From: a virus
Virus record (IMG/VR): IMGVR_UViG_3300049893_001783
Coordinates: 1-49,090 of that record
Length of the DNA: 49,090 bases
Direction: 5' to 3' (one strand)
Shown here: piece by piece, positions 1 to 46,027 of the stretch
Numbering within the stretch: position 1 is the stretch's first letter
Layout of the letters: every line of letters begins with the position of its first letter
Made by a program: the position numbers and the translations under genes
The notes under the pieces: model-generated
Seen by the model: the letters and a program-made list of their open reading frames with translations, nothing else
Told to the model about the DNA's origin: nothing
The model's database searches: none

Positions 1-615
1 GCTAATGCTGCTGCCAAAGACGCCTATAATAAAGCATTGGCGGCTTATGAAAAGTCAATTCAAGTCCTAGACCATTATGACGCCAACATCAAAACTTATC
101 TAAACACAATAGACTTGGAAACAGACTTTATCGCTTTGTCCAAAGGGTATTTGGGGGGGATTTTCCAAGAACTATTAGATGAAATAGCTGTTACTGCTAA
201 TGGTTATTTGGCTCAATTGTCTAATGCCAATACATTTACGGTCCAGTTTTCTACTGTTAAAACCACCCAAGCTGGGGTAGCCAAAAACGAAATTAAGCCT
301 ATTGTCATCAAGTCGGGGGTGGCGTTCGACCGGGAGAACCTGTCAGGCGGACAGGCTACGTCGCTTGATTTGGCGGTAGATTTGGCTCTCAACAAGGTGA
401 TCCGGCATAGGGTAGGGTCGGGCCCCGCTTGGATTATGCTAGATGAAGCGTTCGACGGGCACGACTCGGCGGTTAAAGAGGGGTGCGTCGGGTTGTTGAC
501 AGCGCACGCGCGTTCCGCTATAGTGCTGGTGGTGGATCACGCTGCTGATTTCAATGAATGTTTCACCCAACAAATAGAGGTAGAATGCAATGGGGATGTA
601 TCTAGGATAATATAA
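1..615 (+). CDS. Rad50/SMC-like recombination ATPase, C-terminal part (5' truncated by window)
   Basis: The reading frame is open from base 1, so the true start lies upstream of the window. The visible part carries the second half of an ABC-type ATPase head: signature motif LSGGQ (around residue 115 of the partial protein), Walker B and D-loop IMLDEAFDGHD, and a switch histidine in VVDHAAD. The N-terminal part that is visible is alanine/lysine rich and helical, as expected for the end of a coiled coil. Proteins of this type (T4 gp46, SbcC, Rad50) work with an Mre11-type nuclease to process DNA ends; here a metallophosphoesterase lies about 6 kb downstream. Its stop overlaps the next ATG by one base. 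A promoter-like site lies inside its 3' end at 496-524. Confidence 0.85.
   Translation, partial: ANAAAKDAYNKALAAYEKSIQVLDHYDANIKTYLNTIDLETDFIALSKGYLGGIFQELLDEIAVTANGYLAQLSNANTFTVQFSTVKTTQAGVAKNEIKPIVIKSGVAFDRENLSGGQATSLDLAVDLALNKVIRHRVGSGPAWIMLDEAFDGHDSAVKEGCVGLLTAHARSAIVLVVDHAADFNECFTQQIEVECNGDVSRII
496..524 (+). promoter_or_regulatory. Sigma70-like promoter inside the ATPase gene
   Basis: TTGACA (496-501), a 17-base GC-rich spacer, then TATAGT (519-524). Match is 6/6 and 5/6 to the consensus with ideal spacing. It lies about 90 bases ahead of the ATG at 615, in a GC-rich patch that stands out from the AT-rich surroundings, and could drive the block starting with the gene at 615. Confidence 0.5.
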
Positions 616-1022
616 TGCTTAGTGTCAATTCGATGCCGCCAGAAGAAGCATTGCGGTTAGCGGCAATTTGGGCATCTATTAGCAAAAAGATTTTCTATCT
701 CAAAACAGCTACCGGGATACCTCATGTAGAAGATCCAGACCTAGCAGAACAATTAAGGTCTGAGCCAGAAGCGGTAATAATGGTTTTTACCACTTTAGAA
801 GCAGCTAGTAAGTATGTAGAACACTTAAGGGATAATGTTGGAGTAGATATTCTTTTGGAACCTACCGAATCCACTTTGGAATATATTTTTAACGAATTAA
901 AAGATTTGGGAAGTATCATTGAGGCAGTACACGGTACAAAATTGCGGTTAGACGTTGCACATATGGACGAACACGGTATTTTAATTGATACCCTAACTGG
1001 TCTTGAAGAAGACCTACACTAG
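615..1022 (+). CDS. Hypothetical protein, 135 aa
   Basis: Not recognised. A 135-residue soluble, acidic protein with predicted helices and no Cys cluster or membrane segment. It starts at an ATG that shares its A with the stop of the ATPase gene, so translation is probably coupled. The promoter-like site at 496-524 would make it the first gene of a transcript. The ending (GLEEDLH) is acidic. Codon use matches the neighbours, so it looks like a real phage gene of unknown role in the replication/recombination block. Confidence 0.75.
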   Translation: MLSVNSMPPEEALRLAAIWASISKKIFYLKTATGIPHVEDPDLAEQLRSEPEAVIMVFTTLEAASKYVEHLRDNVGVDILLEPTESTLEYIFNELKDLGSIIEAVHGTKLRLDVAHMDEHGILIDTLTGLEEDLH

Positions 1023-1035
1023 AGGAACTAATAAA

Positions 1036-1317
1036 ATGGCTAAACTAAATCAACCCAAAGACCCCTTTGCTGGCTTACCTGATGAATTCAAGGAACAAGT
1101 AGCGAAGCTAGACAAAGATGGCTTGAACCTTAAATTGGCAGAAGTCGCCAAAAACGAATTTGAAAACCAAAAGCTCAAGGCGGAAGACAAAGACCTAAAT
1201 GACCTTAAGGAACAAGTCAAAGTCGCATCCGAGGGTTATGTAGAATCAACCAAGGCTAATAAGCTCAAAGTCAAATGGTTAGTCCATATCATGCGTGAAA
1301 AGGGCTGGTATAAGTAA
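1036..1317 (+). CDS. Hypothetical lysine-rich small protein, 93 aa
   Basis: Not recognised. The frame is open from a TTG at 1003, but the ATG at 1036 has a purine-rich Shine-Dalgarno stretch (AGAGGA at 1021-1026) at suitable distance, so the shorter form is chosen (MAKLNQPKDPFAGL...). The protein is rich in Lys, Glu and Ala and probably almost all helical, with a basic C-terminus ending GWYK. Its TAA overlaps the next ATG by one base. Highly charged small helical proteins next to recombination genes may bind DNA or other proteins, but nothing specific can be seen. Confidence 0.75.
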   Translation: MAKLNQPKDPFAGLPDEFKEQVAKLDKDGLNLKLAEVAKNEFENQKLKAEDKDLNDLKEQVKVASEGYVESTKANKLKVKWLVHIMREKGWYK

Positions 1318-2260: not shown

Positions 2261-4849
2261 ATGGAAATGTCGGCTTTTGCTAAAACAGTAATGCTACAGA
2301 AGTATTCCCACGATTCCAAGGAAACATGGGAACAAATTGCCAGTAGAGTAGCTACGAACGTAATGGGCGCTATCAAGGCAGACCACTCCACAATCCAACG
2401 TTTTATAACAGAACGTAAATTTATGCCGGGTGGTCGCTATTTGTATGCTAGTGGCCGGGAATACAAAAATGTTCAGAATTGTTTATTATTAAAAGTGGAC
2501 GACTCCCGGGAAGGCTGGGCTGATTTATTGCATAAGGCCAGCATGGCTTTAATGGCTGGGGCTGGCATTGGGGTAGTTTATAGTAGTGTTCGGCCACAAG
2601 GCACTAAAATAAAGAAAACCGGTGGTGTAGCTAGTGGTCCTATTGCGTTGATGCAAATGTTGAACGAAGTAGGCCGAGGCATTCGCCAAGGTGGGGACCG
2701 TCGTTCAGCTATTTGGGCTGGTTTGCATTGGAATCACCCGGATTGCCTTAAGTTTATAGAATTAAAGAATTGGTCTAAAGAAGTCAAAGACTTAAAGGCC
2801 AAAGACTATAATTTTCCAGCCACCATGGATGGGACTAATATTAGTGTAATATTAGACGATGAATTCTTTGTGGCTTTCCATACGGTGACGCACCCATTAC
2901 ATTCCTTGGCCAGTAATATTTATTGGAAAACCGTTAGGCAAATGTTAGAAACGGCGGAACCGGGGTTTAGTGTAGATGTTGGCATTAATGCTGGTGAACA
3001 CCTACGTAATGCACCGGTTTGTGGCGAAACCAAGGTTTTGACAAACGAAGGCTACAAAGCTGTTATTGATATAGTCGGCAAGCCAACTACTGTTTGGACT
3101 GGCGTTCGCTGGGCACCAAATGTAATATTTAATCAAACTGGAACTAATGTTCCAACCGTTGAAGTAAAAATGACTGGTGGCAGAACTATTAAGTGTGATC
3201 CTAGTCACGAATTTTTTGTTGAACAGTATGCCGGGGCTGGCTCTAGAAGAAAACTGGTTGGAATTTCAAAAGTAAAGGCTCAAGATTTAACGGTAGACGA
3301 TATTTTACACGTTAGTTTGCCTATTTCGCCAACACAAAACACGTTTTCTCCGTTGTATTATACTATGGGTTTTGGGGTTGGTGATGGGCATTGGAATTCT
3401 AATAATGGGCTCGATATTTCTATTTGTCACCCTTCCAAAGAATCATGTATTAATGGTTTAGTACATAAGAAAACCCAAGGGGTAGACAAGCGTGGATATA
3501 CTCGATTTTATATTCCCAATATACCTATGCAGCCCAAAACTGGTATTTCGGACACAATTTGGAAAGCTAGTGCCGAGCACCAATGCAGCTTTTTGGCTGG
3601 ATTGTTCGATGCTGACGGTAACTTGACTTTTGATTCCAAAAGAACCTCTATTCGGTTAAGTAATGTTTCATTTGAATTTTTAAGTGATATTGCTAGGTTA
3701 TTGGAATCTTTGGGGATTATAGCTCATATTTCTAAAGGTGGAAAAACCAATTTTGGCACAAACAAACAAATGTGGCAATTAAGTGTGGCAAGTGATTATA
3801 TTACCGTTTTTGCCAACATTATCCCCACTTTGAGATTACCGTTACAGAATTTTGCCCATAGTTCTTACCGTAAAAGCCACATTCGGGTGATTTCAGTTAC
3901 GCCAAGCGAAACCGCAAACGTTTATTGCTGTGACGTTAAATTTTTTGAGCATTCTTTTATGGCCGAAGGGGTTATTATCAGCAATTGCACCGAAGTAACC
4001 TCTAAAGACGACTCCGACATTTGCAATTTAGGGTCTATCAATCTAGCTAGAATTGAGTCCCTAGAAGAAATGCGTGAAATCGTCAAAGCTGGGGTTGAAT
4101 TCTTAATAGCTGGGACTCAGTATTCTGACGTACCCTACGAAAAGGTAGCCGCAATCCGTAATAAAAACCGTAGGTTAGGCTTAGGGCTAATGGGAATCCA
4201 CGAATGGTTATTAAAGCACGGTAAACGTTATGGGCCAGATAAAGACCTAGCAGAATACTTGGCGGTTTATGCTAGTTCCGGGGTATTGGCTGATGATTTT
4301 TGTCGTAAGCTAGGTATTAGTGCGCCAGTTAAAACTAGGGCGCTTGCCCCAACTGGTACGATTTCAATTTTGGCAGAAACCACTAGTGGAATTGAGCCTA
4401 TATTTTGTGTAGCCTATAAGCGTCGGTATTTGAAAGGTGACCTAGTTAACTACCAATATGTAGTAGACCCTACAGCTAAAAGACTAATTGAAGCAGGGGT
4501 CAAGCCAGAGCAAATAGAAGATGCTTATAGTTTGGCTGAAAATGTTGAACGCCGGGTAGAATTCCAAGCATGGATGCAACAATATGTAGACCATGCTATT
4601 AGTTCTACCATTAACTTGCCACCATGGGGTAGTGCTTTAAATAATGAATCCAGGGTAGAAGATTTCGGTAATATGTTAATTAAATATTTACCCAAACTAC
4701 GGGGTATTACTTGTTATCCAGACGGGGCCCGGGGTGGACAACCCTTGACGCCAGTCAAATATCAAACGGCTATCAAGCATATTGGTGAAGTTTTCGTAGA
4801 ACAAGCCGATGTTTGTGATATAACCAAAGGTGGAAGTTGTGGGGTTTAA
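2261..4849 (+). CDS. nrdJ: Class II (B12-dependent) ribonucleotide reductase with intein
   Basis: An 862-residue precursor of which about 322-324 residues are an intein, leaving a mature enzyme of about 540 residues. Extein hallmarks are NCLLLK (partner cysteine of the redox pair), the NA...CTEV active-site segment split by the intein, DICNLGSINLAR (second cysteine of the pair), the phosphate-binding LAPTGTISILAETTSGIEPIF, and a C-terminal Cys pair (CDITKGGSCGV) for thiol reduction. No class I small subunit or class III activase is visible nearby, which fits an adenosylcobalamin enzyme that makes its own radical. It reduces ribonucleotides to deoxyribonucleotides for phage DNA synthesis. The cysteine just after the intein (residue 576) aligns with the thiyl-radical cysteine, so the enzyme should be dead until splicing. 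Confidence 0.9.
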   Translation: MEMSAFAKTVMLQKYSHDSKETWEQIASRVATNVMGAIKADHSTIQRFITERKFMPGGRYLYASGREYKNVQNCLLLKVDDSREGWADLLHKASMALMAGAGIGVVYSSVRPQGTKIKKTGGVASGPIALMQMLNEVGRGIRQGGDRRSAIWAGLHWNHPDCLKFIELKNWSKEVKDLKAKDYNFPATMDGTNISVILDDEFFVAFHTVTHPLHSLASNIYWKTVRQMLETAEPGFSVDVGINAGEHLRNAPVCGETKVLTNEGYKAVIDIVGKPTTVWTGVRWAPNVIFNQTGTNVPTVEVKMTGGRTIKCDPSHEFFVEQYAGAGSRRKLVGISKVKAQDLTVDDILHVSLPISPTQNTFSPLYYTMGFGVGDGHWNSNNGLDISICHPSKESCINGLVHKKTQGVDKRGYTRFYIPNIPMQPKTGISDTIWKASAEHQCSFLAGLFDADGNLTFDSKRTSIRLSNVSFEFLSDIARLLESLGIIAHISKGGKTNFGTNKQMWQLSVASDYITVFANIIPTLRLPLQNFAHSSYRKSHIRVISVTPSETANVYCCDVKFFEHSFMAEGVIISNCTEVTSKDDSDICNLGSINLARIESLEEMREIVKAGVEFLIAGTQYSDVPYEKVAAIRNKNRRLGLGLMGIHEWLLKHGKRYGPDKDLAEYLAVYASSGVLADDFCRKLGISAPVKTRALAPTGTISILAETTSGIEPIFCVAYKRRYLKGDLVNYQYVVDPTAKRLIEAGVKPEQIEDAYSLAENVERRVEFQAWMQQYVDHAISSTINLPPWGSALNNESRVEDFGNMLIKYLPKLRGITCYPDGARGGQPLTPVKYQTAIKHIGEVFVEQADVCDITKGGSCGV
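3014..3985 (+). other. Intein with LAGLIDADG homing endonuclease, inside the RNR
   Basis: The insert ends with the intein C-terminal pattern (HSFMAEGVIISN) followed by Cys576. It carries a two-motif LAGLIDADG homing endonuclease: MGFGVGDGHWN and FLAGLFDADGNL. The N-terminal block reads PVCGETKVLTNEGY. If the intein began at Cys254 (base 3020), the host motif would be NAPV-CTE. Starting at Pro252 (base 3014) restores the canonical N-A-C-T-E and also puts Thr at intein position 6, as in typical block A. The block B Thr appears replaced by Asp (CDPSH), the penultimate His is Ser, and block F has two cysteines (VYCCDV). The exact start is therefore uncertain by two residues. Confidence 0.85.
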
Positions 4850-6446: not shown

Positions 6447-6963
6447 ACCACAAGAACCACTATTAAAAGACCGGGTAGCACAACTTGAAATTGTAGCCAG
6501 AGAAACCGACCAAGAACTAGGCAAACTAGGAACAGCCCTTAAGGGTATGTTAGAGGTTTTGTCAGGGGTTATGGCAGCTTTGGGGCCCGAAACAGAAGCC
6601 AAAGTCGTACAATTCGTAGAATCTAAGCGTGACGAGCGGGCCCGAGCGGAGGCTGAATCCGCCGAGGCAGACCACAAGCGGTTTGTGGAGGCCAAAGTCC
6701 TACAACCGGCAGAGGTAATCTTAGCGGATAACTGCGTTGTCGGTGGCAGGGAGCTTGACAGCACCGGCAAGGTATGTCACTATGGGGTCAAGCGTACTCG
6801 GGTTGAACAATTCCGTGACGAAGCTAAGACTTTCTTGGTAGGCAAAGGCGTAGGGGCGGTATTTGAAGCTCCCAATGGGTCTAAATTTGAAGTTACGGAA
6901 ATCTGGACAATCAATCAAAGTGCGCTAAACCCAACTGAGATTGATAATGTCAAAACCCAATAA
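6439..6963 (+). CDS. Hypothetical coiled-coil protein, 174 aa
   Basis: Not recognised. Residues 1-85 are a helical, heptad-rich region (LEIVARETDQELGKLGTALKG and an Arg/Glu/Ala-rich stretch). The C-terminal half looks like a small beta domain (VFEAPNGSKFEVTEIWTIN). The region about 6600-6800 is clearly richer in G and C than its surroundings and contains a TTGACA at 6755, but no good -10 at normal spacing. Its 3' end overlaps the phosphoesterase start by 17 bases. Confidence 0.7.
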   Translation: MNKPQEPLLKDRVAQLEIVARETDQELGKLGTALKGMLEVLSGVMAALGPETEAKVVQFVESKRDERARAEAESAEADHKRFVEAKVLQPAEVILADNCVVGGRELDSTGKVCHYGVKRTRVEQFRDEAKTFLVGKGVGAVFEAPNGSKFEVTEIWTINQSALNPTEIDNVKTQ

Positions 6964-8215: not shown

Positions 8216-8580
8216 TGACTGTGAATGTTTCCATTCGGTCGCTTAAAACAAAGCGATTGAATACTGTTAAGGCAATAGAAGAAACAAAAGTGTCAATTAG
8301 TTATTTAGATAAGCAAGTCCTTGATTTTACTGCCAATTTAGCAAATTTCAAAGACAAACCGGTAGTTTCCCTAGTGGAATATGCCAATGTTAGGTTGGGG
8401 ATTAGTAAAAGTCAATCACAGTTAGTTGAAGCCAAAAAGCTATGTATCAACTTGGAAAAAGAACTTGAAATCTTAGACAAAAACATCAAGTTCTTTGAAC
8501 AGATGGCTAAACAAAAAAATTCTGTTGCCAAGGTAATACGTTATGACTTTAGACAAAACACAAATAGACCTAATAATTAA
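8215..8580 (+). CDS. Hypothetical coiled-coil protein, 121 aa
   Basis: Not recognised. The ATG overlaps the stop of the phosphoesterase by one base. The protein is almost entirely helical with leucines and lysines at heptad spacing, interrupted near the middle (FKDKPVVSLVEYANVRLG), so it could fold as an antiparallel helical hairpin. The C-terminus is basic (VIRYDFRQNTNRPNN). The last 38 bases overlap the next gene in another frame. No enzymatic motif is seen. Confidence 0.7.
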   Translation: MTVNVSIRSLKTKRLNTVKAIEETKVSISYLDKQVLDFTANLANFKDKPVVSLVEYANVRLGISKSQSQLVEAKKLCINLEKELEILDKNIKFFEQMAKQKNSVAKVIRYDFRQNTNRPNN

Positions 8581-8824
8581 TGACGCGGATTATATTTGTT
8601 CTCCCAAGTTCAATAATAGTCTAAAAGAATTACTTAAACGTTACCCTGACGGGGCCCCGGACCGATTAATTGCGCGCGTTTTGGGGCTGTCAACCAAGGA
8701 GCTTGACTTGGTGTGGGCGAACGTGGTAGAGTTGTTGCAGGGTCACTTTAACTTAACTCAAAACGATAATCACAATCAAAATCAAAATGAAAAACTTTCC
8801 CACCAATCATTGCCATCCGAGTAG
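8543..8824 (+). CDS. Small helix-turn-helix-like protein, 93 aa
   Basis: The centre reads YPDGAPDRLIARVLGLSTKELDLVWANVVELL, which fits a helix-turn-helix (helix, turn at LGLS, second helix). Similar short proteins with a 'YPxGxPxxxIAxxLxxxxxEV' pattern occur near replication genes in other phages (family knowledge, not searched). The C-terminus is an Asn/Gln-rich tail that overlaps the polymerase gene by 38 bases in another frame. It overlaps the upstream gene by a similar length. A promoter-like site (8703-8732) is embedded in its 3' half. Role unknown; DNA binding is possible. Confidence 0.65.
   Translation: MTLDKTQIDLIINDADYICSPKFNNSLKELLKRYPDGAPDRLIARVLGLSTKELDLVWANVVELLQGHFNLTQNDNHNQNQNEKLSHQSLPSE
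8703..8732 (+). promoter_or_regulatory. Sigma70-like promoter ahead of the DNA polymerase
   Basis: TTGACT (8703-8708), 18-base spacer ending TGG, then TAGAGT (8727-8732). The TGG directly before the -10 is an extended -10 element. It lies 55 bases ahead of the polymerase ATG (8787) inside the small upstream gene, in a GC-rich patch. The GTGGTAG core is shared with the sites at 12508, 13414 and the minus-strand site at 19387. Confidence 0.55.
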
Positions 8825-11800: not shown

Positions 11801-12638
11801 TAAAATTGTAGCCCATAAGAAATCCAAAGCCACACCAGTATTAGATGTTAATGGTAAACAAGTATTAAATGCCAAAGGCCAACCAAAGTTCAGGGCTGGG
11901 CTATCGGCTTTGAATACGGGAGTAGTGTCTAAACTAATAGTTAGTGGTGTAGCTGATTCATTGTTCCCTAAAGACACGAATTTGTTGGATAAGTTCAATT
12001 TGTATCAAAGTGCTATGACTTTGGCTAGTGGTAAAAAGGCCAAAATTGACCCGATGTATGCTGAACTAGGTGCATTACAGCGGTATCAATTGCAGAAACA
12101 AATCCTAGAGGTTCATGGGGCTAATTTGTTACCGTTGGTAGCGGATATTAAGCTAGAAGGTGTATTAAAAGCACATAAATCATATGCTTATTATTATTAT
12201 CCAGAATCACCCAATACATTAATAAATATATTAAAGCAACGTGGTATTAATTCAGACCGGTTTAGTGGTTATCCATTGGTAACTGCTAGACAATTTGAAC
12301 ACCTAAGTAAAGTAGAAGTCCCACCGGGTACTACGTTTGAAGCAGCTATGGTTGGGTATATTATGGAATCTAGGGAATTCAGTTGGAAAGACAAAGTAAC
12401 TGGTAAGCAAAAGACTGCCGTAGAAATAATATTGGACGTAGAAGGCCAAGTATTCAAAATGGTTAAGTGGCCCAACAAGGACACCGGTAAAATCGCGGGG
12501 CTGGCAGTTGACACCCTGACCGGAAGTGTGGTAGTGTGTATGGCGTCCCGTTGGAAAACGGATAGAGACTTTGGTTGTGATGCTTTAGTAGTAGTTCAAC
12601 CGCCATTAAAGGCAAAAGAATCATCGCAAGAGGAATAA
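8787..12638 (+). CDS. dnaE: DNA polymerase III alpha subunit
   Basis: A 1283-residue C-family replicative polymerase. The N-terminal PHP domain starts almost at once (NHCHPSS near residue 8, ITATDHGSMG near 35-44). The catalytic palm has GRGSAAGLLLSYL (about 458-470), PDIDLDFPD with Asp504 and Asp506, and KMDFLGLNSL (about 667) for the third aspartate; TALDRPGPL and the EQLQ / FNKSHSVCYS segments follow in normal order. The ATG at 8787 puts the first PHP histidines only a few residues in, so no longer N-terminus is expected. The protein is slightly longer than bacterial DnaE; the PHP region carries extra sequence around residues 200-300. It copies the phage genome together with the helicase, primase and SSB encoded here. 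Confidence 0.95.
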   Translation: MKNFPTNHCHPSSLDSGSTPESFAERELQLETGCITATDHGSMGACSEIYDLAQKHKLIPILGLEAYVRDDDCPILAKHGIEKVDNKYDKYNKYYHITLHALDEEGYLALVRTLNKGESRAEQHGSERKPLFSWADLEYLGQYNITMTSGCLIGMVQRHLLSGHNEIATAYYEKLRSIPKPGNFYVDLYPHRCTHYWVSGVFLDLGGPKPETIKLGKDRRIKTSVGEYSAEEAAKLAAKGKPLGDLLAVMTRRKWVDRQPAPIVGIKSLEDFMPNECTPESPDGDIQLHANVFVRDLANKYGDLLVIADDSHFATPTDKVVQDSKLSQSGNWRFHNSYHRQSSKEAFEYFSSAMGMSEKDFERLVQNNIDWSQRFKGFKFNSKVSLPTKFYPDNTLAYLKSLIDKHGRMDWGDPIMVDHLKAEIDLLARNGTVDLLPYFFLAEDVTYHYESLKLLTGPGRGSAAGLLLSYLIGVTHVNPLDYKLSRDRFLTVDRVQSGKMPDIDLDFPDRDVLLHPETGYLYKKFADHVAGISVDQKLRLKNAIRDTSRFLTGKVLDDLEVLCKKLPLPPQGINDYDWVFGYTGDDGKEIRGLLEESVDLQIYAKKYPNHWDIVQKMLGLTRQKGRHASAVVVTNTPVADLMPLTTISGIKVTQYTKDHVEARGGLKMDFLGLNSLNDLSKAIHLIQARHGGKIEADRILNGKRVPGFRLVPYKGEYYDIWDLPADTKVFNKISEGDTDTVFQLNTNSAKQWLKLFDYVKDSNTNVKAIDSIEAISAFTALDRPGPLDAKVTAANGKEHNMLVEYANRAKGLPASGAIPIMDKLLPETYGVMVYQEQLQYVYQHLTGCTGIEANDFRNNISKKKMAKVKEAYPQFMERASKQIPKDQAQAVWDQMVTFGQYGFNKSHSVCYSVIAYSCAFLKYHYPLEWWCAVLQNAKKTEISEKFWKHCSKYVLMPDIRFSGNTFEIEGDKIRAPLSMLKGVGENAHNELVLFRPITDIADLCNKIVAHKKSKATPVLDVNGKQVLNAKGQPKFRAGLSALNTGVVSKLIVSGVADSLFPKDTNLLDKFNLYQSAMTLASGKKAKIDPMYAELGALQRYQLQKQILEVHGANLLPLVADIKLEGVLKAHKSYAYYYYPESPNTLINILKQRGINSDRFSGYPLVTARQFEHLSKVEVPPGTTFEAAMVGYIMESREFSWKDKVTGKQKTAVEIILDVEGQVFKMVKWPNKDTGKIAGLAVDTLTGSVVVCMASRWKTDRDFGCDALVVVQPPLKAKESSQEE
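12508..12537 (+). promoter_or_regulatory. Sigma70-like promoter inside the 3' end of the polymerase gene
   Basis: TTGACA (12508-12513), 18-base spacer ending TGG, then TAGTGT (12532-12537). Perfect -35 and extended -10. It lies about 100 bases ahead of the small gene at 12639 in a GC-rich patch. Confidence 0.55.
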
Positions 12639-12875: not shown

Positions 12876-13559
12876 ATGGATCCACTAAGAGACATATTTA
12901 ATAAAATGGATGAAGCGCAAAAAACCGCATCTAAATCATTGGAAGAAGTTGAACCAGCATTTAGACCGGGTTGGGCAGTTTTGGTTAGGGACGCCAAGGA
13001 TGCTTTGGCCAAACTAAAGGCAGATTTGCCCAAAGTAATAGCTAATAGGGTAACACGTAATTTAGTTGTTGGTCCGAAACCTAATCTTGGTAGAACAGGT
13101 AAGTTGGTTTTCGACGGGAATGAATTATTCCGCCGGTTAGCGGAATTAAGTCACCCAATATTAGATCCCCGTCGTTCTACGTTTGAGGCTGGTACATATA
13201 TTCGGATTAAGGGAGACTTTTATAGGTTTTGTGAAGATCATGGTTTAACTGGTATTCTAGACCCACAACCAAACCCACAAGATTATGGTGCGGCAATAGA
13301 CGGTTTAGACGGTCTGACTGCTTTGGTCAAACGCATGGTTGTTGCCACAAATCCTGAACTAAATGGCAAATTCTTAGAACAATTGGTTTGCAAGACCGTG
13401 TTGGAACATCGACTTGACTACCCTACCCTGAACGTGGTAGTGTATAACTTGACGAATGACGACGCAGCAAACCTTGAACGGACTCTTTTCCCGGGGCGAC
13501 CCTTAAAGGAAAAGAATGCAGCAAAGACAGTAGAAGAAGAATCCACCGTAGCAAACTAA
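12876..13559 (+). CDS. Hypothetical protein between polymerase and SSB, 227 aa
   Basis: Not recognised. The ATG follows a GAGGA ribosome-binding sequence at 12864-12868. The protein is soluble; the N-terminal 65 residues are helical and Lys/Ala/Glu rich, the middle contains conserved-looking Pro/Gly segments (VVGPKPNLGRTGKLVF, GTYIRIKGDFYRFC) and the C-terminal tail is charged. Its location between the polymerase and the single-strand binding protein suggests a replication role, but this is context only. The 3' end is GC-rich and carries the promoter-like site at 13414-13443. Confidence 0.7.
   Translation: MDPLRDIFNKMDEAQKTASKSLEEVEPAFRPGWAVLVRDAKDALAKLKADLPKVIANRVTRNLVVGPKPNLGRTGKLVFDGNELFRRLAELSHPILDPRRSTFEAGTYIRIKGDFYRFCEDHGLTGILDPQPNPQDYGAAIDGLDGLTALVKRMVVATNPELNGKFLEQLVCKTVLEHRLDYPTLNVVVYNLTNDDAANLERTLFPGRPLKEKNAAKTVEEESTVAN
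13414..13443 (+). promoter_or_regulatory. Sigma70-like promoter ahead of the SSB gene
   Basis: TTGACT (13414-13419), 18-base spacer ending TGG, then TAGTGT (13438-13443). It lies about 140 bases ahead of the SSB ATG (13585). Together with the terminator at 14573 it would define a short, strong SSB transcript. Confidence 0.55.
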
Positions 13560-17278: not shown

Positions 17279-18292
17279 ATGTCGTCTTTCAATCCAGACG
17301 CTTTAAACAATTTCATCACCAAGGGTGGCGTTCCGTTTCGGCAGAACGCCATTTCTTTTATTTTTGATTGCCCTAGGTGTGAAAAGTCGGATAAGCTATA
17401 TATTCGTAAAAAAGATGGCAGGTTTGTTTGTTGGAGGTGTAAGGAAACCGATAGGTTTCAGGGTCGCGCAGAATTTGCGCTTCGGGAACTCTACAACTTA
17501 CCAATTAGTACAATCTACCCCGTGCTGTACGGGGCTGACGTACCCGACACGTTGCAGGACTTGGACCTAGACCTAGGGGGAACCGAGGATGAATTTTGGG
17601 GTGACCCGCCAGAAGCGTCCCCGGTCAATACTGTTGTTGTGCCAGACGATTTCGTAGACTATACCCATAATTCATTTCTGCCCGGCTACAAATATTTGAA
17701 ATCCAGAGGGGTAGACTTGGATTTGATTGAATACTACGACATACGCTATAGCCCATTTGATTCCCGGGTAGTATTCCCTATTAAGGTCAATAACGAATGG
17801 GTTGGCTGGCAAGCTCGTTACATTAAAAACACCAAACGGATAGATTTAGCCAAAGGGGCGGTAGTTGAAATCCCTAAAGTTCTGACTTCTAATAGTATAA
17901 GGGGCAAGGCTGGCCGTATTTTAATGTTTCAAGACAACCTAACCGTAGGGCATTGTGTATTAGCCGAAGGCCCCATATCGGCCATTAAAGCGCATAAGTG
18001 TGGGGGGAATGTCGCTAGCATGGGTAAAGCAGTTAGTTTGAATCAATTACAAATCATAGCTAGTAAATGTAAAAAGCTATATATTGCTTTAGACCCGGAT
18101 GCTGGTGAAGATATTAGCCGTATTGTCAACGATTACGACTTAGGGCTAGAACTTTATTTATTACAACCGGTTGACGGCAAGGAAGATTTAGGGGATTGTA
18201 CTTTGGATGAAGTATATGAACAGTTCCAAACCGCCCCTAAGTTAAATAAGGGCGATTTGGTTCTGAGCCTAGGTAATAAATTAGGTATTTGA
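17279..18292 (+). CDS. DnaG-type DNA primase
   Basis: A 337-residue primase. The zinc-binding domain has Cys31, Cys34, Cys51 and Cys54 (CPRC...CWRC). The TOPRIM catalytic domain shows LAEGPISAIKA (Glu near 229) and IALDPDAGED (Asp near 271 and 273), the metal-binding residues. It makes RNA primers for lagging-strand synthesis with the DnaB-type helicase encoded 1.1 kb downstream. It is shorter than bacterial DnaG because the C-terminal helicase-interaction domain is missing. There is a small GC-rich hairpin-forming sequence (17518-17534) inside the gene. The 3' end overlaps the convergent minus-strand gene by 12 bases. Confidence 0.9.
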   Translation: MSSFNPDALNNFITKGGVPFRQNAISFIFDCPRCEKSDKLYIRKKDGRFVCWRCKETDRFQGRAEFALRELYNLPISTIYPVLYGADVPDTLQDLDLDLGGTEDEFWGDPPEASPVNTVVVPDDFVDYTHNSFLPGYKYLKSRGVDLDLIEYYDIRYSPFDSRVVFPIKVNNEWVGWQARYIKNTKRIDLAKGAVVEIPKVLTSNSIRGKAGRILMFQDNLTVGHCVLAEGPISAIKAHKCGGNVASMGKAVSLNQLQIIASKCKKLYIALDPDAGEDISRIVNDYDLGLELYLLQPVDGKEDLGDCTLDEVYEQFQTAPKLNKGDLVLSLGNKLGI

Positions 18293-19369
18293 TTTACGGC
18301 AAGCCCGGCAATAGGATTGCTTGGATGCCCTATAAGGCAAGCCAGTTATTTTGTTTTTGGCCACCCTAATGCCGAAATGTGATTTAGGGTGTAATTGTTT
18401 ACACTTACCACAATTCAAGTAATCTGGTAGTTTGGCCATTAGTTCTTCGCTTAATGTCTTAGACATTTGCTTTAGTTCTGCTTTGGTAAGGTTATGGGCT
18501 TGACGGGCTGGGGGGGTAGTGGCATACTTAGGGACAGCGGTGACGTTACAATCCAAGCATTTCAAGCCCGACATTACCTTTTTGGAGCAATTAGGGCAAA
18601 TCAATGTATTACACAATTGCTTCGCAAATGTTCTGGCTTCTGGCGCAATGTGTGGATTATTGGCTGCTTCAACCAATAGTTCAGCACGGGTTACCGGATC
18701 TAATTTATCTAAGTGTGTGTGTATGGATTTTGGATTTGTGTGATATTGATTGGGAATAATTTGATTATTATCTAATTGGTTAATTATGGATTCAGCTTGG
18801 GCGTGTGTGATTAATATATTATCCAAATAGAATTCATATTTAAACAAACCCACTTGCTTGAGGTTCAAAACATGGACTATATCTCCCATAACGTATTTAA
18901 TGGATTGTTCAGGTATTTCATATTCGGGGTTAGTGTTTTCAGACAAATAGGTTTCTAGAAAATCGTCTAGAGACACACAGTTTTCGTTTATAATATCTAC
19001 TGGTATGGTAAATTGCTTCTTTTTGCTGGTAGCTATTAGTTCGTAATAACGTTGTTTTAAGTAATTAACAAATAACCCTTTATGGGTCATTATTTCTTGA
19101 CTGGCCAAGAAACTAATAGCGTGGACTAAGCCAATATTTATTAGGTCTTCCCGGTCAAAGCCCATGTGGGATAATACTTGTTTGTTTTTGTAATAAATAT
19201 TATTGGCCGTTTTTTTAATTAACGGTAAGGCTTGTTTTAGCTTTTCGTTAGGTGGATTAGGACTACGCCTTAATTGGGCGTGTCTTAAGTAAACATCCTC
19301 AAAATTATCTCGGTGGTTTACTTTGGTAGTGGCTGGTTGACGGGGCAGGGTGTGTGTGGTAGTGTCCAT
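18281..19369 (-). CDS. Sigma-factor-like protein with zinc ribbons
   Basis: A 362-residue protein on the opposite strand to all its neighbours. The segment KTANNIYYKN...GFDREDLINIGLVHAISFLA (about residues 55-100) resembles sigma70 region 2, including the 'DLINIGL.HA' core; FVNYLKQRYYELI follows as in the next helix. The C-terminal half has two zinc-ribbon-like clusters, CPNC...CLDC and CGKC...CRAC. The frame extends to a GTG at 19396, but the ATG at 19369 has an AGGAG seven bases upstream and is preferred. A role in redirecting host RNA polymerase to phage promoters (as for T4 gp55) is plausible but inferred from weak similarity. It has its own promoter-like site (19387-19415). Confidence 0.65.
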   Translation of the reverse strand: MDTTTHTLPRQPATTKVNHRDNFEDVYLRHAQLRRSPNPPNEKLKQALPLIKKTANNIYYKNKQVLSHMGFDREDLINIGLVHAISFLASQEIMTHKGLFVNYLKQRYYELIATSKKKQFTIPVDIINENCVSLDDFLETYLSENTNPEYEIPEQSIKYVMGDIVHVLNLKQVGLFKYEFYLDNILITHAQAESIINQLDNNQIIPNQYHTNPKSIHTHLDKLDPVTRAELLVEAANNPHIAPEARTFAKQLCNTLICPNCSKKVMSGLKCLDCNVTAVPKYATTPPARQAHNLTKAELKQMSKTLSEELMAKLPDYLNCGKCKQLHPKSHFGIRVAKNKITGLPYRASKQSYCRACRKSNT

Positions 19370-19386: not shown

Positions 19387-19415
19387 ACTCTACCACACTC
19401 CACTATGGAACACAA
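19387..19415 (-). promoter_or_regulatory. Minus-strand promoter for the sigma-like gene
   Basis: On the minus strand: TTGTGT (19415-19410), 17-base spacer ending TGG, then TAGAGT (19392-19387). The GTGGTAGAGT core is identical to the plus-strand site before the polymerase (8703). A transcript would start near 19380, just ahead of AGGAG and the ATG at 19369. Two near-repeats GTGGAGTGTGG / GTAGAGTGTGT overlap it. Confidence 0.5.
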
Positions 19416-21423: not shown

Positions 21424-21815
21424 TGGATTTAGAACAAATAAAAGACTGGCGTGGCCTAGAAAATATTTGTTCTCGTTGTGGTGGTTGTGGTAAACGTTCT
21501 TATGGGTCTACTTCAACTTGGCGGGGTGGTATGGGGGGTAGTTCTGTTACGGTAGATATTTGTGATCGGTGTTGGGGTAGTGGTGAAGATCAAAAGCCGT
21601 GGTTAGATTTACGCAAATTAGAATCTATCATAGCAGAACAAGCCCAACAGCGTAGTTTGACGCATTTGACTGGTGTGGCAGATATGTCAGTTTTGAAGCC
21701 AGCTTTAAACGAATTAATTAAAGAACTCAAGAAACTAGCAAATGGTCGTAAGCCTAGACCGCAATATTTCTATAATGTTTGTGAATTATTAGCTAAACGT
21801 TTGGAATTACCATAA
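21423..21815 (+). CDS. Zinc-finger protein with DnaJ-like CxxCxG pairs, 130 aa
   Basis: The N-terminal 55 residues contain CSRCGGCGK and CDRCWGSG separated by a glycine-rich loop, the arrangement of half a DnaJ-type zinc centre (CxxCxGxG twice). The C-terminal 75 residues are helical (LKPALNELIKELKKL). There is no J domain. The ATG overlaps the ClpP stop by one base and its stop overlaps the next ATG by one base, so it is tightly coupled to the ClpP-like gene. An adaptor for the protease or a nucleic-acid-binding role is possible; neither is shown. Confidence 0.75.
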   Translation: MDLEQIKDWRGLENICSRCGGCGKRSYGSTSTWRGGMGGSSVTVDICDRCWGSGEDQKPWLDLRKLESIIAEQAQQRSLTHLTGVADMSVLKPALNELIKELKKLANGRKPRPQYFYNVCELLAKRLELP

Positions 21816-22375
21816 TGGAATACACCAATAAGCATTTGGCAGTAGCGGCTATAGCAGGGATGCTTATTGGTGGGTTATTGACAAAATTCGGCACTACCCC
21901 TGACATAAAAGTCATAGAAACCGAAAAGGTAGTGCTACAAGAAAAAGTCAACCTAGTAGAAGTAGTTAAGCAAGTAGTAGTGGAAAAAGTAGTTGAAAAG
22001 AAAATATATGTGTCTAATACAAACAAATCTACTTATAAGAAAACTACTATAGGCGCAGATGGCTCAACAACTATTATCGAATCTACTAATTTAGACCGTA
22101 TGGTTCAGGATACTAGGGTAGAAAAGGTAGAAACCGAAAAGGTAGTTGAAAAAGACAAAGTAGTTAAAGTTGAAGTAGACCATATAGTTGAAAAGGTCAA
22201 AACAATAGAGCCAGTTGTCCCAAATTGGAGACTTGACGTAGGGCTAGGGTATGGGTTAGACTTACAACCAACGTGGGCTGTAGGAGTATCTAGACGTATC
22301 CTAGGGCCAGTCCGAATCGGTTTGCGGTACGAATCGGATGTTAAATTAATGACCGCTTTGGAGCTAGAATTCTAA
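21815..22375 (+). CDS. Membrane-anchored coiled-coil protein, 186 aa
   Basis: Residues about 7-27 form a glycine-containing hydrophobic segment (LAVAAIAGMLIGGLL), probably a signal anchor. A long stretch of Val/Glu/Lys repeats (VVEKVVEKK, KVETEKVVEKDKVV) flanks a TTIGADGSTTIIES segment; similar valine/lysine-rich coils with a 'DGT' segment occur in small membrane proteins of other large phages. The C-terminus (WRLDVGLGYGLDLQ, RIGLRYESD) looks like beta strands. Periplasmic orientation is likely. It could be spanin-like, but it is far from the endolysin and no lipobox partner is adjacent, so this remains a guess. Confidence 0.75.
   Translation: MEYTNKHLAVAAIAGMLIGGLLTKFGTTPDIKVIETEKVVLQEKVNLVEVVKQVVVEKVVEKKIYVSNTNKSTYKKTTIGADGSTTIIESTNLDRMVQDTRVEKVETEKVVEKDKVVKVEVDHIVEKVKTIEPVVPNWRLDVGLGYGLDLQPTWAVGVSRRILGPVRIGLRYESDVKLMTALELEF
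22233..22262 (+). promoter_or_regulatory. Promoter-like site inside the membrane-protein gene
   Basis: TTGACG (22233-22238), 18-base spacer, then TAGACT (22257-22262). Five of six bases match at -35; the -10 is of the same TAGnnT form as the other sites. About 115 bases ahead of the small gene at 22376. Confidence 0.45.
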
Positions 22376-24165: not shown

Positions 24166-24167
24166 AT

Positions 24168-40137: not shown

Positions 40138-40157
40138 TATGTTACCTAAGATTTCTA

Positions 40158-41111: not shown

Positions 41112-43094
41112 TTAGCCTTCGGTATTTATTACACCATATGTGGTGTGTTTGTTTTCAAATAGGTCTTTGTTGATAGAAATCCCATTACTTAAACCCAATA
41201 CGGTATTGAATTGTTTTTGTCCATTAGGTGATATATAACCACGGTGTATTACCCGTTCTATATGGTAAACCGTGCCATCATATTCTAGGTTGTCGCCTTC
41301 ACAAATAGGCTTGGCAATCCCATTACAAAGGATTTCGCCTGTTTTTCTTAGGTGTTGCGAAAACAATATGTCAGCCATTATTTTATTCCAAGTTCGTACT
41401 TCACCAGCATATTTATCATTAGCTGTAACGGCAATACCAACTTGAGCTTCAAACATACGCAACCCCGACCTTACGACTTCTGCCTCGTTGTAGGCTGGAC
41501 CGGATATAACTTGGGCGTACTGTGCTTGGGCTACGGGGTCTTTGGCTGCCGACAACGGTGTCACCATGCACCAGTTCACCTTAGATTGTTCGGATTTGCC
41601 AATAGTGCTGGAAATAACCATGTTGGGGCTAAGTAACCATCTAGGCAATTCCAAAAATTTAGTAGTAGCACCTAGAAACTTAAATGTGAAATCCCCGGTA
41701 TTGGCATATTTAAGGTATAATTCTTTTTTAAGTTGTAGGGTTTTGTCTGAATCAGTATTGATTGGACTTTTGTCACCGGCTTGGGAACTAATTATGTTTA
41801 ACCAATCTTTAAAGGGGTTGTTATTTAAATTAAAAAGGGAATTGGCTAGGTTTACACCATTTAGGGGGCCAAAATCGCCATTCAATTCTTTGAATTCGGT
41901 ATTAGGGGTGATTTCTATTTGTTCTTGGATTTTACCTATAGTAAATGGGATTTGTCTGGTTACTATAGTAGGGCGGATATAGCCTGCTAAATCTGGTTTT
42001 AGACAAGTATATATTTCATTAATGGGTTTGTTTAAATAAGTATCTAATATAGCCCAAACAGATTTACCGTTGAAATCTACTGGCATAGGTGTTAAAGAAC
42101 CAGTAATAGGTTGTTGGGCTAGATAATGATTACCTACAGTAGTTTTACCCAACAACACCGGCCACATTTTAATGGCTTCTGGATGGGCTTTTGTATTGAG
42201 ATCGGAATCTAATTGATCCCCGAAAGATTGTAATCCTACAATATGCTGTAATAGGTCTATGTAAGTTGGTACATCGCCCGCAGCTTCAACTATTGTATCT
42301 TGGCTCCCTCTAGTCAACAACAATACTTGCCAAGGCACACCCATAATAGTATTGGGGTTTAATATTAAATTGGATTGTTTACGTTCTGCGCCAGTAGCAG
42401 TAATGGCTTTAGTATTGGCTGGATCTTTATAGGCGTCGTCTGGCCCCATGCCTAGACAAATATTCAACATGGCTATAATGGCTTTTTGACTATTAACAGA
42501 ACCATTTAGCAAGAACTTATTGAAATCACCGCTAAATTTATGTAGTAATAGTGGGGCATCTTCGAAATTCAACCCAACCCGTTCATTATAATAAATAGTG
42601 TTATCGAGTTCGGTAAAACCATTAGCCGTAATAGTTACTACAGTTTGTAATACTCCGTTGGGTTGTCTAGTTTGGTTTTCAGACACCGTTTGGACTTTAC
42701 CCATGAATTTTAAGCCAGATTCATAAGTATTAATGCCAAAGCCATTCATTACGTTAGTAATGGTTTGGATATAATCAGATTTATTATCGAATACATTAAA
42801 GAATATCCAATCATTAGGATATATGGCATCCATGTAGTTCTTATTTTTAATTAATTGGATAGTCATACCCGACGTATGGTTTTGTTTGGAGCTAGAACAC
42901 TCAAACGACATTACCGTAGTTAGCAAAATAGGGTCGTTGGTTTTTAAAGCCTTTTCCCTAGCGTTCTCTATTGACTGTCCCCGGTCCCTGTCGTATAGTT
43001 CACGGTACTTGAACGGTATGACAGTCGCAAACCAATAAGGACTGGTTTGGTGGGAATCTTTGCTATTTGCGTGTACTGGTATTGTGGCTGGCAT
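41112..43094 (-). CDS. Baseplate hub-like protein, 660 aa
   Basis: From the ATG at 43094-43092 (MPATIPVHANSKD), preceded by GAGGG; a longer GTG frame reaches 43145. The first 200 residues include FECSSSKQNHTSGMTIQLIKNKN and an ANGFTELDNTIYYNE segment, resembling gp27/gpD-type hub domains that hold the spike. The C-terminal part (ICEGDNLEYDGTVYHIERVIHRG) is also typical of hub proteins. The gene is the first of a short operon with the spike-like gene. Two plus-strand promoter-like sites lie antisense to its 5' end. Confidence 0.65.
   Translation of the reverse strand: MPATIPVHANSKDSHQTSPYWFATVIPFKYRELYDRDRGQSIENAREKALKTNDPILLTTVMSFECSSSKQNHTSGMTIQLIKNKNYMDAIYPNDWIFFNVFDNKSDYIQTITNVMNGFGINTYESGLKFMGKVQTVSENQTRQPNGVLQTVVTITANGFTELDNTIYYNERVGLNFEDAPLLLHKFSGDFNKFLLNGSVNSQKAIIAMLNICLGMGPDDAYKDPANTKAITATGAERKQSNLILNPNTIMGVPWQVLLLTRGSQDTIVEAAGDVPTYIDLLQHIVGLQSFGDQLDSDLNTKAHPEAIKMWPVLLGKTTVGNHYLAQQPITGSLTPMPVDFNGKSVWAILDTYLNKPINEIYTCLKPDLAGYIRPTIVTRQIPFTIGKIQEQIEITPNTEFKELNGDFGPLNGVNLANSLFNLNNNPFKDWLNIISSQAGDKSPINTDSDKTLQLKKELYLKYANTGDFTFKFLGATTKFLELPRWLLSPNMVISSTIGKSEQSKVNWCMVTPLSAAKDPVAQAQYAQVISGPAYNEAEVVRSGLRMFEAQVGIAVTANDKYAGEVRTWNKIMADILFSQHLRKTGEILCNGIAKPICEGDNLEYDGTVYHIERVIHRGYISPNGQKQFNTVLGLSNGISINKDLFENKHTTYGVINTEG
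42971..42999 (+). promoter_or_regulatory. Strong promoter-like site antisense to the hub gene
   Basis: TTGACT (42971-42976), 17-base spacer, then TATAGT (42994-42999): five of six matches in both boxes with ideal spacing. It points rightward to the lysis/accessory block starting at 43168, from within the 5' end of the minus-strand hub gene, in a GC-rich patch. Confidence 0.5.
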
Positions 43095-43108
43095 GGTCCC
43101 TCGCGGGG

Positions 43109-43137
43109 TTGACAAGTGGCGTGGCGCGTGGTACGCT
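43109..43137 (+). promoter_or_regulatory. Extended -10 promoter ahead of the right-hand gene block
   Basis: TTGACA (43109-43114), 17-base spacer ending TGG, then TACGCT (43132-43137). Perfect -35 and extended -10; about 30 bases ahead of the ATG at 43168, so it would leave a short leader. Second in tandem with the site at 42971. Confidence 0.55.
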
Positions 43138-43167
43138 GGGATCACACTTGCTGAGAGAAAGATTCAT

Positions 43168-43603: not shown

Positions 43604-43918
43604 ATGAACGACCCCGTAGAATATTTGACTAATCTATTAAAGAAAGCCCTTAATTCAACTAAAACCCACGGTTGGGATTGTGCTCTAGCGGGTAAAGCTA
43701 GCGACGATCTTAGTTGGTGTACCTGTTGGATTAAAGACGCCAAAGCCGTATTAGGTGAATCAGTACCACCACCTAGTAAGTATTTGCAAAAAGAATCCAA
43801 TGGTAAACCCATGGAAAATCAAGCGTGTGGTTATTGCCGCCACCCCGCTAAAGACCACGCACAACTCGTTAATTTGTGTTGTAAGGTTAATTGCGATTGC
43901 GAAAAGTTTTCATATTAA
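43604..43918 (+). CDS. Cysteine-rich zinc-binding small protein, 104 aa
   Basis: The N-terminus is helical with a WCTC pair in the middle; the C-terminus reads CGYCRHPAKDHAQL...CCKVNCDCEKF, a His/Cys pattern (CxxC, H, DH, CxC) common in small zinc-binding proteins of phages and actinobacteria. It lies seven bases after its neighbour and three before the endolysin-like gene. Role unknown; metal binding is likely. Confidence 0.7.
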   Translation: MNDPVEYLTNLLKKALNSTKTHGWDCALAGKASDDLSWCTCWIKDAKAVLGESVPPPSKYLQKESNGKPMENQACGYCRHPAKDHAQLVNLCCKVNCDCEKFSY

Positions 43919-43921
43919 ATC

Positions 43922-44752
43922 ATGCTAAATCTAACCTATAAAGACTTAGTTGAGTTTTTGTCTTATTTGAGAGTCCGGGTTGATTCTAATCCGGGTGATT
44001 TCCAAATCTTAGGCTTGCAGGGGTGTGTGCCTATACACACCAACCAAATCGAGCCTAAAGCCAATGTACCCAATATATATAACGACTCTATTATATATAT
44101 AGGTAAAACACCCGACAACCAGCCATATGCCGAAGCTTATTTAGGCACCGTTGACCCGGGTAACGCTTACCTAGATCAACCCGGTGGCCAAGCACATTTG
44201 ACATTTGGCCAACATTTATATGTTACGGGTTCACATATGGGTTACCCTGCTCTAAGGGGTTTGAATGGCCACAACCGGATTTGGCGAGACTTAGATAAAG
44301 ACCATGTGATTAGTGAACTCGATTATGTTTCGGAAGGTCAATTCGGGGTTAACGTCCATGCGGGCGGTAATGGACCTAACATAAATAATTGGTCTGCTGG
44401 TTGTATTAATATATGTGGCGGTTGGAATTCGCCGCAATATTTGCGTATGTTGGCTTTGGCAGACCAACACCTATTAAAGCGTTCCAATATTGGTGTGACG
44501 GTTTGGTCTTATAAAGATTTTGAAGCCTTTATGTTGAAACCTTGGCTGGTTAAGCCAACCTTACGGTTTGGTATGTTAAATCCATGGGTCGGTGAATTAC
44601 AAGGATTATTGACTGCCAAGGGTTATTTTAAAGGCAGTATTGATTCTGATTTCCAAGGCAAAACTGGTGCGGCTGTTAGAGAATTTCAAAAAACCAAAGG
44701 CTTAGTTGTAGACGGCATCGTTGGTTCTAAAACTTGGGGCTTATTAACATGA
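43922..44752 (+). CDS. Endolysin-like protein: YkuD-like domain plus peptidoglycan-binding domain
   Basis: A 276-residue protein with two domains. At about 135-165 the sequence GVNVHAGGNG...NNWSAGCINI has the His (146), Ser (158), Gly and Cys (161) of the L,D-transpeptidase/YkuD-type active site (H...S-x-G-C). The last 65 residues (NPWVGELQGLLTAKGYFKG, then GAAVREFQKTKGLVVDG) are a PG_binding_1 domain. No signal peptide is seen, so export would need a holin. It may act as the lytic enzyme, although L,D-transpeptidases crosslink rather than cut; some phage proteins of this shape are annotated as endolysins. The TGA overlaps the next ATG (ATGA). Confidence 0.75.
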   Translation: MLNLTYKDLVEFLSYLRVRVDSNPGDFQILGLQGCVPIHTNQIEPKANVPNIYNDSIIYIGKTPDNQPYAEAYLGTVDPGNAYLDQPGGQAHLTFGQHLYVTGSHMGYPALRGLNGHNRIWRDLDKDHVISELDYVSEGQFGVNVHAGGNGPNINNWSAGCINICGGWNSPQYLRMLALADQHLLKRSNIGVTVWSYKDFEAFMLKPWLVKPTLRFGMLNPWVGELQGLLTAKGYFKGSIDSDFQGKTGAAVREFQKTKGLVVDGIVGSKTWGLLT

Positions 44753-45810
44753 ATCCTAAACAATTAGATAAAACACTAAGTTTGCATCAAAAGTGGCTAA
44801 ATAATGAACCCGATGGGGTTATGGCTAACCTAGTAGGGGCTAACCTAGTAGGGGCTAACCTAGTAGGGGCTAACCTAAAAGGGGCTGACTTAAGAAGGGC
44901 TAACCTATATAATGCCTACCTAGTTAGGGCTAACCTAAAAGGGGCTAACCTTGAAGGGGCTAACCTTGAAGGGGCTAACCTTGAAGGGGCTAACCTTGAA
45001 GGGGCTAACCTTGAAGGGGCTAATCTTGAAGGGGCTAACCTAGCAAATACTAACCTAGCAGGGGCTAACCTAGTAAGGGTTAACCTAATATCGGCTGACC
45101 TAGAAGGGGCTGACCTAAGATGGGCTAACCTAGAAGGGGCTAGACTAGTAGACGCTAACCTTAAAGGGGCTAGGCTAGTAGACGCTAACCTTAAGGGGGC
45201 TAACCTAGCTAACGCTAACCTATTTAGGGCTCACCTAGAAGGGGTTGATCTGCAACAGGCTAACCTTGAAAACGCTAACCTTGAAGGGGCTAACTTATAT
45301 GGGGCTAACCTAAAAGGGGCTAACCTAAAAGGGGCTTACCTAATAAAATCTAACCTAGCAAGGGCTCACCTAGCATTAGCTAAACTAGTAGGGGCCAACC
45401 TTGAAAATGCTAACCTAGAAGGGGCTAACCTAGAAGGGGCTAAACTAGATCAAGCCAAGTTACCGGATTATCAAATCCCACAAAACAAAAAGCTAATAGT
45501 TTATAAGAAAGTATGTTACGATATCGTACTTAAATTAGAAATCCCGGCAAAAGCCAAAAGAACTGCTAGCTTAATAGGTAATAAGTGTAGGGCAGAATAT
45601 GCCAAAGTAATGGCTTGGAAAAAAGTTGGTGATAAAAAATGGCATAAAACTAATAAGAAAAACGAGGAGTTCATTAGCAAACATAAACTAAGCTTCGAAT
45701 ATAAAATAGGCGAAATTGCTAAACCGGATTCTTACGACAACGACCCTAGGGTAGAATGCACTAATGGTATTCATTTCTTTATGAAATACAAGGACGCAAA
45801 GGCTTACTAA
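44749..45810 (+). CDS. Pentapeptide-repeat protein with conserved C-terminal domain, 353 aa
   Basis: From the ATG at 44749 (overlapping the previous stop). After the N-terminal block LSLHQKWLNNEPDGVMANL come about 42 uninterrupted pentapeptides of the A-(N/D)-L-x-x type (residues 26-235), which should fold as a right-handed square beta-helix. A C-terminal domain of about 115 residues follows ([44 protein letters not shown]), of the type seen in many phage pentapeptide proteins. Such helices can mimic DNA and block gyrase or other proteins; here the function is unknown. The paralogue at 46536 shares both ends but has only 17 repeats. Confidence 0.88.
   Translation: MNPKQLDKTLSLHQKWLNNEPDGVMANLVGANLVGANLVGANLKGADLRRANLYNAYLVRANLKGANLEGANLEGANLEGANLEGANLEGANLEGANLANTNLAGANLVRVNLISADLEGADLRWANLEGARLVDANLKGARLVDANLKGANLANANLFRAHLEGVDLQQANLENANLEGANLYGANLKGANLKGAYLIKSNLARAHLALAKLVGANLENANLEGANLEGAKLDQAKLPDYQIPQNKKLIVYKKVCYDIVLKLEIPAKAKRTASLIGNKCRAEYAKVMAWKKVGDKKWHKTNKKNEEFISKHKLSFEYKIGEIAKPDSYDNDPRVECTNGIHFFMKYKDAKAY
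44824..45453 (+). repeat. 15-bp tandem repeat array (about 42 units) coding pentapeptides
   Basis: Imperfect 15-base unit close to GGGGCTAACCTAGAA, about 42 copies without interruption. A run of six copies around 44943-45035 is nearly identical (GGGGCTAACCTTGAA), so unit number probably changes by slippage or recombination. Confidence 0.95.
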
Positions 45811-45811
45811 A

Positions 45812-46027
45812 ATGGTTAATAATAAAACAATTACTTTAAAATTTTTGGGTGGCTCCACCGTAGTAGAACTCAACGACTGCGACTTGACTCTGACCGGGCC
45901 TAGTGCTACCATGCATCGTAGGTTTGCTACTGACGTTGGTGCGGAGTTGTTCTACAATAAACTGGACTCCAATGTTGATGAATCTACGTTGGAATTCTTT
46001 GGTTTCGTAATCACAAATGACCCTTAA
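45812..46027 (+). CDS. Hypothetical small beta-rich protein, 71 aa
   Basis: Not recognised. Predicted strands (KTITLKFLGGSTVVELNDC, DLTLTGP) followed by a short helix (FATDVGAELFYNKLD). It starts one base after the upstream stop region and overlaps the next gene by 11 bases. Its middle contains the promoter-like site 45884-45912. Confidence 0.65.
   Translation: MVNNKTITLKFLGGSTVVELNDCDLTLTGPSATMHRRFATDVGAELFYNKLDSNVDESTLEFFGFVITNDP
45884..45912 (+). promoter_or_regulatory. Extended -10 promoter-like site inside a small gene
   Basis: TTGACT (45884-45889), 17-base spacer ending TGC, then TACCAT (45907-45912). Extended -10 present. In a GC-rich patch about 105 bases ahead of the gene at 46017. 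Confidence 0.5.

Follow-up and report, generated by a model that had tools for sequence, protein, structure and literature searches.

Roughly ten TTGAC(A/T/G)-17/18-TA(G/T/C)nnT sites in a 49,090-base virus contig (henceforth the window, i.e., the whole stretch of DNA that we analysed) are probably host sigma-A/sigma-70 promoters of early and middle genes, embedded in the compact genome of an Mx1-like myophage. Judged from the sequence, this set is real, computationally well supported and ordinary in kind, i.e., it does not represent a new kind of system. In the mechanism that we propose, the housekeeping RNA polymerase of the host (sigma-A/sigma-70 type) would recognise these sites, most of them with a GTGG extended -10, and would use them to initiate transcription of dnaE, SSB, helicase and the small-gene block at 43-49 kb as early and middle genes. 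Most sites fall within the final 90-150 nt of the gene upstream, two overlap the start of a divergent gene in antisense orientation, and the same bases would serve both coding and promoter function via synonymous codon choice and tolerated amino-acid changes.

Predicted promoters within coding sequence

An initial annotation of the window had listed nine promoter-like sites. All nine coordinates were exact in the sequence, and the accompanying counts of six TGn extended -10 elements and five GTGGTA strings were right, but two members of the set had been missed (19337+ and 48702+) and one listed site (19415-) has a poor -35, TTGTGT. With that one exception, all sites in Table 1 have sigma-70-type hexamers (-35 near TTGACA, -10 near TAnnnT) at 16-18 nt spacing, and GTGG before the -10 is common to seven of them (six on the plus strand, plus 19415-). 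Bacterial sigma-70 promoters with an extended -10 consist of two hexamers, a spacer of 17-18 nt, a TGn and a -10 of the form TATAAT. The sites in the window share the two hexamers, the spacer length and the TGn before the -10, but differ in their GC-rich spacers within a 41% GC genome and in a -10 of TA(G/T/C)nnT rather than TATAAT. They also resemble known promoters inside myxobacterial gene series, which likewise drive downstream genes in a myxobacterial host; those, however, were tested by reporters and activation, whereas the sites described here are predicted and lie in a phage.

Table 1. Promoter-like sites, the opposite-strand gene and examples of significant GC islands in the window.
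Feature	Position	Strand	TGn extended -10	Mx1-matrix score	Context
TTGACA-17-TATAGT	496..524	+	none	14.9	SbcC-like gene end, 91 nt before start 615
TTGACT-18-TAGAGT	8703..8732	+	GTGG	15.8	Inside ORF 8543-8824, 55 nt before dnaE (8787)
TTGACA-18-TAGTGT	12508..12537	+	GTGG	16.1	dnaE 3' end, 102 nt before start 12639
TTGACT-18-TAGTGT	13414..13443	+	GTGG	15.8	Inside ORF 12876-13559, 142 nt before SSB-like gene (13585)
TTGACG-17-TAGTGT	19337..19365	+	GTGTGG	18.2 (top of window)	Antisense over first codons of gene 18281-19369; 63 nt before helicase gene (19428)
TTGTGT-17-TAGAGT (weak -35)	19387..19415	-	GTGTGG		Faces 19337+; would drive gene 18281-19369; not among best 40 places by Mx1 matrix
TTGACG-18-TAGACT	22233..22262	+	none	12.3	Inside ORF 21815-22375, 114 nt before start 22376
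TTGACT-17-TATAGT	42971..42999	+	none	14.6	Antisense over 5' part of gene 41112-43145; upstream of plus-strand gene block at 43.1 kb
TTGACA-17-TACGCT	43109..43137	+	GTGG	10.7	Divergent start region, 31 nt before ATG 43168
TTGACT-17-TACCAT	45884..45912	+	TGC	12.3	105 nt before start 46017
TTGACT-17-TATCGT	48702..48730	+	GTGG	11.5	ORF 48471-48881, near contig end
Opposite-strand gene	18281..19369	-			Between primase and helicase; kept in place in most relatives
GC island	265-548				Holds site 496
GC island	6601-6774				No promoter
GC island	8638-8752				Holds site 8703
GC island	9947-10142				No promoter
GC island	17467-17614				No promoter
GC island	24722-24833				No promoter
GC island	41454-41612				No promoter

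We found that the pattern is strongly over-represented. Specifically, TTGAC(n)-16/18-TAnnnT occurs 13 times on the plus strand versus 5.8 in synonymous-codon shuffles, which retain every protein and its codon usage (none of 500 shuffles reached 13). The excess is larger for the extended -10 form (7 versus 1.4; 0/500) and for TTGAC-N-GTGGTAnnnT (6 versus 1.08, with a maximum of 3 in 1000 codon shuffles). Dinucleotide shuffles gave 7 matches to a close variant of the pattern versus 18 observed (0/100), and the reversed pattern, used as a control, gave 9 in the window versus 21. By contrast, a scan of 1-20 kb with a generic sigma-70 consensus yielded no excess (37 versus 49), meaning that only the TTGAC / TA(G/T/C)nnT form carries the signal. 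The initial annotation had named codon shuffling as the check that could undo its claim; the shuffles gave far fewer matches, and the claim survives.

The sites are also placed as promoters would be. Nine of the ten plus-strand sites are followed by a gene start, with 31-142 nt from the -10 to that start (we re-assigned one of the nine, ATG 43168), when about two would be expected given that 17.7% of plus-strand territory is that close to a start; this bears out the earlier placement of 30-140 bases upstream of functional blocks. Near-start placement was likewise found for 8 of 12 pattern matches (P = 2e-4). The accompanying claim that most sites lie inside the preceding gene agrees with seven of the ten, which are in sense and 90-150 nt from the gene end. 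Of the others, 19337 and 42971 overlap the 5' part of a divergent gene in antisense orientation, and 43109 is in a divergent start region. Such embedding follows from the compactness of the genome, which has almost no intergenic DNA (approximately 651 of 49,090 window bases are outside gene models).

The Mx1-like family and a promoter matrix trained on Mx1

A 14-kb query from the window had no megablast match among deposited phages. Its DnaE-type polymerase, however, aligns over the full length at 55% identity with that of Myxococcus phage Mx1 (next phage records: 28%), a phage with a contractile tail and a 169,621-bp genome of 55.5% GC, whose host has 68.8% GC (PMC10720576). The order SbcC - phosphoesterase - small ORF - DnaE - SSB - RecA - primase - opposite-strand gene - helicase - Clp-like protease is shared with Mx1 and broadly with eleven IMG/VR records (in partial records some of the genes were not found). 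The window thus belongs with the Mx1-like phages by its homologous replication genes in the same order and its full-length DnaE match. Since this gene order recurs in Mx1 and the relatives, the window may represent perhaps 30% of an Mx1-like genome; the phage is probably an Mx1-like myophage with a whole genome of approximately 170 kb. By analogy with one cultured relative, we infer a myxobacterial host. The RecA of the window retrieved no viral relative, and a genome scan matched a single contig, in a MAG labelled Saccharibacteria, which identifies no host.

Other genes of the window have features of their own. A ribonucleotide reductase gene with a B12-type insertion domain (2261-4849, plus strand) is interrupted by an intein carrying a LAGLIDADG endonuclease domain. 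The insert is missing from relatives L018 and L019, which match on both sides of it, and Mx1 has class Ia genes there. The translation of 24144-25313 (plus strand), near a peptide deformylase gene, contains repeated CDxxDNDCDGxVDE cysteine motifs and a DxSGS (VWA-like) motif. Two related proteins (44749-45810 and 46479-47222, plus strand) have long pentapeptide-repeat stretches and a common C-terminal part.

Given that the pattern had been read from the window itself, we built a scoring matrix from Mx1 only. Mx1 has approximately 36 TTGAC-16/18-TAnnnT sites on the coding strand of a region of small genes, and 33 of the 35 analysed end 15-60 nt before annotated starts (median 28), which makes the training set credible even though its members were themselves picked by the TTGAC/TAnnnT pattern. 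When this matrix was applied to both strands of the window, the six best places were 19337+, 12508+, 8703+, 13414+, 496+ and 42971+; five of these were already on the earlier list, and the one ranked first, 19337+, was new. Sites 22233+, 45884+, 48702+ and 43109+ were within the first fourteen places, among four others. At a score of 12 there were 9 matches versus 3.1 expected (0/1000). The matrix holds no information on the bases ahead of the -10, yet seven sites have GTGG there. Together with the codon shuffles and the position before gene starts, the match to the Mx1 matrix supports the initial proposal that these predicted promoters are embedded in coding sequence.

The two sets of sites are alike in TTGAC(A/T/G), in a -10 that reads TA(G/C)(A/T)(G/A)T after a 16-17 nt spacer in Mx1, in their position before gene starts and in belonging to the same phage family. 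They differ in that Mx1 sites are intergenic, stand as a rule 22-35 nt before starts, are confined to the small-gene region and carry GGATCT/AGATCC in the spacer, whereas those in the window are inside genes, are also found ahead of replication genes and carry GTGG at the -10. The Mx1 hexamer is absent from every site of the window.

Of the 35 TTGAC-type promoters analysed in Mx1 itself (OR576727.2, 69-121 kb, minus strand; L015, L016, L013), 30 contain GGATCT or AGATCC, in one orientation at 16 sites and in the other at 14 (versus approximately 0.24 expected each), and the hexamer prefers a few positions. It is a candidate operator-like word of Mx1 early promoters; we found no description of it in the literature. 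Scanning IMG/VR for the two spacer words gave results too unspecific for use. The Mx1 genome announcement (OR576727; PMC10720576) does not describe promoters, and neither it nor the review that we consulted treats transcription in Mx1-like phages. In 9 of the 35 Mx1 promoters the TGA stop of the upstream gene forms part of the TTGAC -35 (L015, L016; early region). A further word, (C)AATCTT, precedes late Mx1 genes with a weak signal (log-likelihood 41 versus 21-32 in shuffles), and AATCTT/TATCTT stands before structural gene starts in the window at 43164 (-), at 40153 (-) and upstream of 37048 (-); these words could be a late signal, one too weak to claim.

Turnover among relatives and a candidate sigma-like factor

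As far as aligned sequences tell, the promoter type is common to the relatives and its positions are not. In most relatives the TTGAC...TAnnnT frame is more frequent than its reversed-pattern control. At 496, 8703 and 12508 the promoter is absent in every relative that aligns at those codons, at 13414 it is absent in the only comparable one, and the Mx1 replication region has no TTGAC-type embedded sites. At 12508 and 8703 the encoded residues fit the family pattern, so that synonymous choice could account for most of the promoter sequence there. Under 496, the protein encoded by the window reads RSAIV where most relatives have D(K/R/C)L(V/I), and the promoter there may have been allowed to alter the protein. 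The string CGTGGTA at the -10 also occurs in relative G008. In the 167-kb relative G002 (L276, L280-L283), T(T/C)TGATAGTAT recurs at the -10 of many promoters as a further phage-specific form of the shared frame.

At 19.4 kb, 19337+ (helicase) and 19415- (opposite-strand gene) form a face-to-face pair whose predicted starts are approximately 8 bp apart, meaning that simultaneous occupancy is hardly possible. Any switching role of the pair is a guess, and the -35 of 19415- is poor. TTGAC-type sites also precede the opposite-strand gene in relatives L018, L025 and L026. The protein encoded by this gene, which has CxxC pairs in the C-terminal part, had no informative family match and no sigma match in Pfam or PHROGs, and a PDB profile search gave only weak, unrelated matches. 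The N-terminal domain modelled alone (pLDDT 81, pTM 0.67) gave sigma region 2 or phage AR9 polymerase chains as the first twelve rows of a structural alignment (Z 6.3-8.3), and sigma chains were in the first five rows for the whole-protein model; Foldseek alone returned nothing significant for the model. This modest structural evidence suggests that the product is probably a phage sigma-like factor.

A more elaborate model would join these observations: one host-type frame carrying lineage-specific words (GGATCT/AGATCC in Mx1, T(T/C)TGATA in G002, CGTGGTA in the window and G008) that are read by a lineage-specific regulator or matched to a host sigma variant, plus a face-to-face pair in the window that switches between helicase and a new phage sigma-like factor opening late genes. 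Taken jointly, we regard this as rather unlikely.

GC-rich spacers, GC islands and alternative explanations

When the sites are aligned at the -35, spacer GC is 0.69 (versus 41% genome-wide), with 0.37-0.62 in the 60 nt upstream, approximately 0.54 in the 20 nt after the -10 and approximately 0.4 thereafter. Spacers near gene starts have a GC of 0.70 versus 0.46 for matches to the same pattern elsewhere (P = 2e-4). In Mx1 the spacer value is 0.63 (0.69 without the hexamer) versus 0.59 in the surroundings, and relatives G008 and G004 show the opposite trend, on few sites; the GC-rich spacer is thus not general. The window also contains GC islands of 100-300 nt that go beyond the expectation from amino acids and global codon use (z about 4.1-5.9). 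The patches near 6600-6800, 10000-10100, 17460-17640 and 24750-24830 that the initial annotation had set aside as lacking a promoter are indeed such islands with no promoter inside. Its broader view that the promoters sit in GC-rich islands applies to four islands only (those holding 496, 8703, 42971 and 48702): most islands are promoterless, and 12508, 13414, 22233 and 45884 are outside islands by the same test. Likewise, the idea that promoter GC constrains codon choice is upheld for the 17-nt spacers but not for patches of 60-200 nt.

Several origins of the islands were considered and rejected. Selection for accurate translation is not supported, as conserved sites had no enrichment of GC-ending codons (Mantel-Haenszel odds ratio 1.06, Z 0.96); amino-acid composition alone was ruled out for about seven to nine windows; and recent recombination with a sampled relative would raise nucleotide identity in the islands, which we did not see. 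Island matches to available relatives have approximately 63-79% nucleotide identity and track conserved genes.

Whole GC-rich patches might nevertheless have been taken from GC-richer relatives, with promoters carried along. The excess of the islands over prediction fits such mosaicism, as do the GC3 of the SbcC-like gene (0.50, versus 0.27-0.43 in other genes tested) and the 54-68% GC of several relatives; the unremarkable identity of the islands and their poor overlap with the promoters speak against it, and we consider this origin very unlikely. Chance is also an unlikely source of the sites, if a slightly less improbable one: recurrent peptides such as (L/V)D-x5-(N/S)VV could, with codon bias, give TTGAC...GTGGTA without function. 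Similar strings are indeed found in the same frame at 8703, 12508 and 13414 (LDLVWANVVE, VDTLTGSVVV, LDYPTLNVVV), LTGxVVV is close to a DnaE family motif, and the absence of the sites in relatives would be expected. Synonymous shuffles, however, retain those very peptides and yield far fewer matches, sites also occur in other frames and antisense, and chance leaves the clustering ahead of gene starts unexplained.

The remaining alternative concerns the reader of the sites, which could be a phage-encoded or phage-modified specificity factor with GTGG as its signature rather than plain host sigma-A. GTGG is phage-specific, with other words at or near the same place in Mx1 and G002; the family has the gene resembling sigma region 2, and Mx1 another gene annotated as a sigma factor. 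Yet both hexamers are of the standard sigma-70 kind, which fits promoters that have to work before any phage protein is made, and GTGG fits an ordinary TGn extended -10, which makes such a factor improbable here.

This analysis yields a promoter model transferable between Mx1-like relatives and suggests how a compact phage may fit host promoters into coding DNA without fixed positions. It also brings out a candidate phage sigma-like factor and a putative operator-like word in Mx1 promoters.
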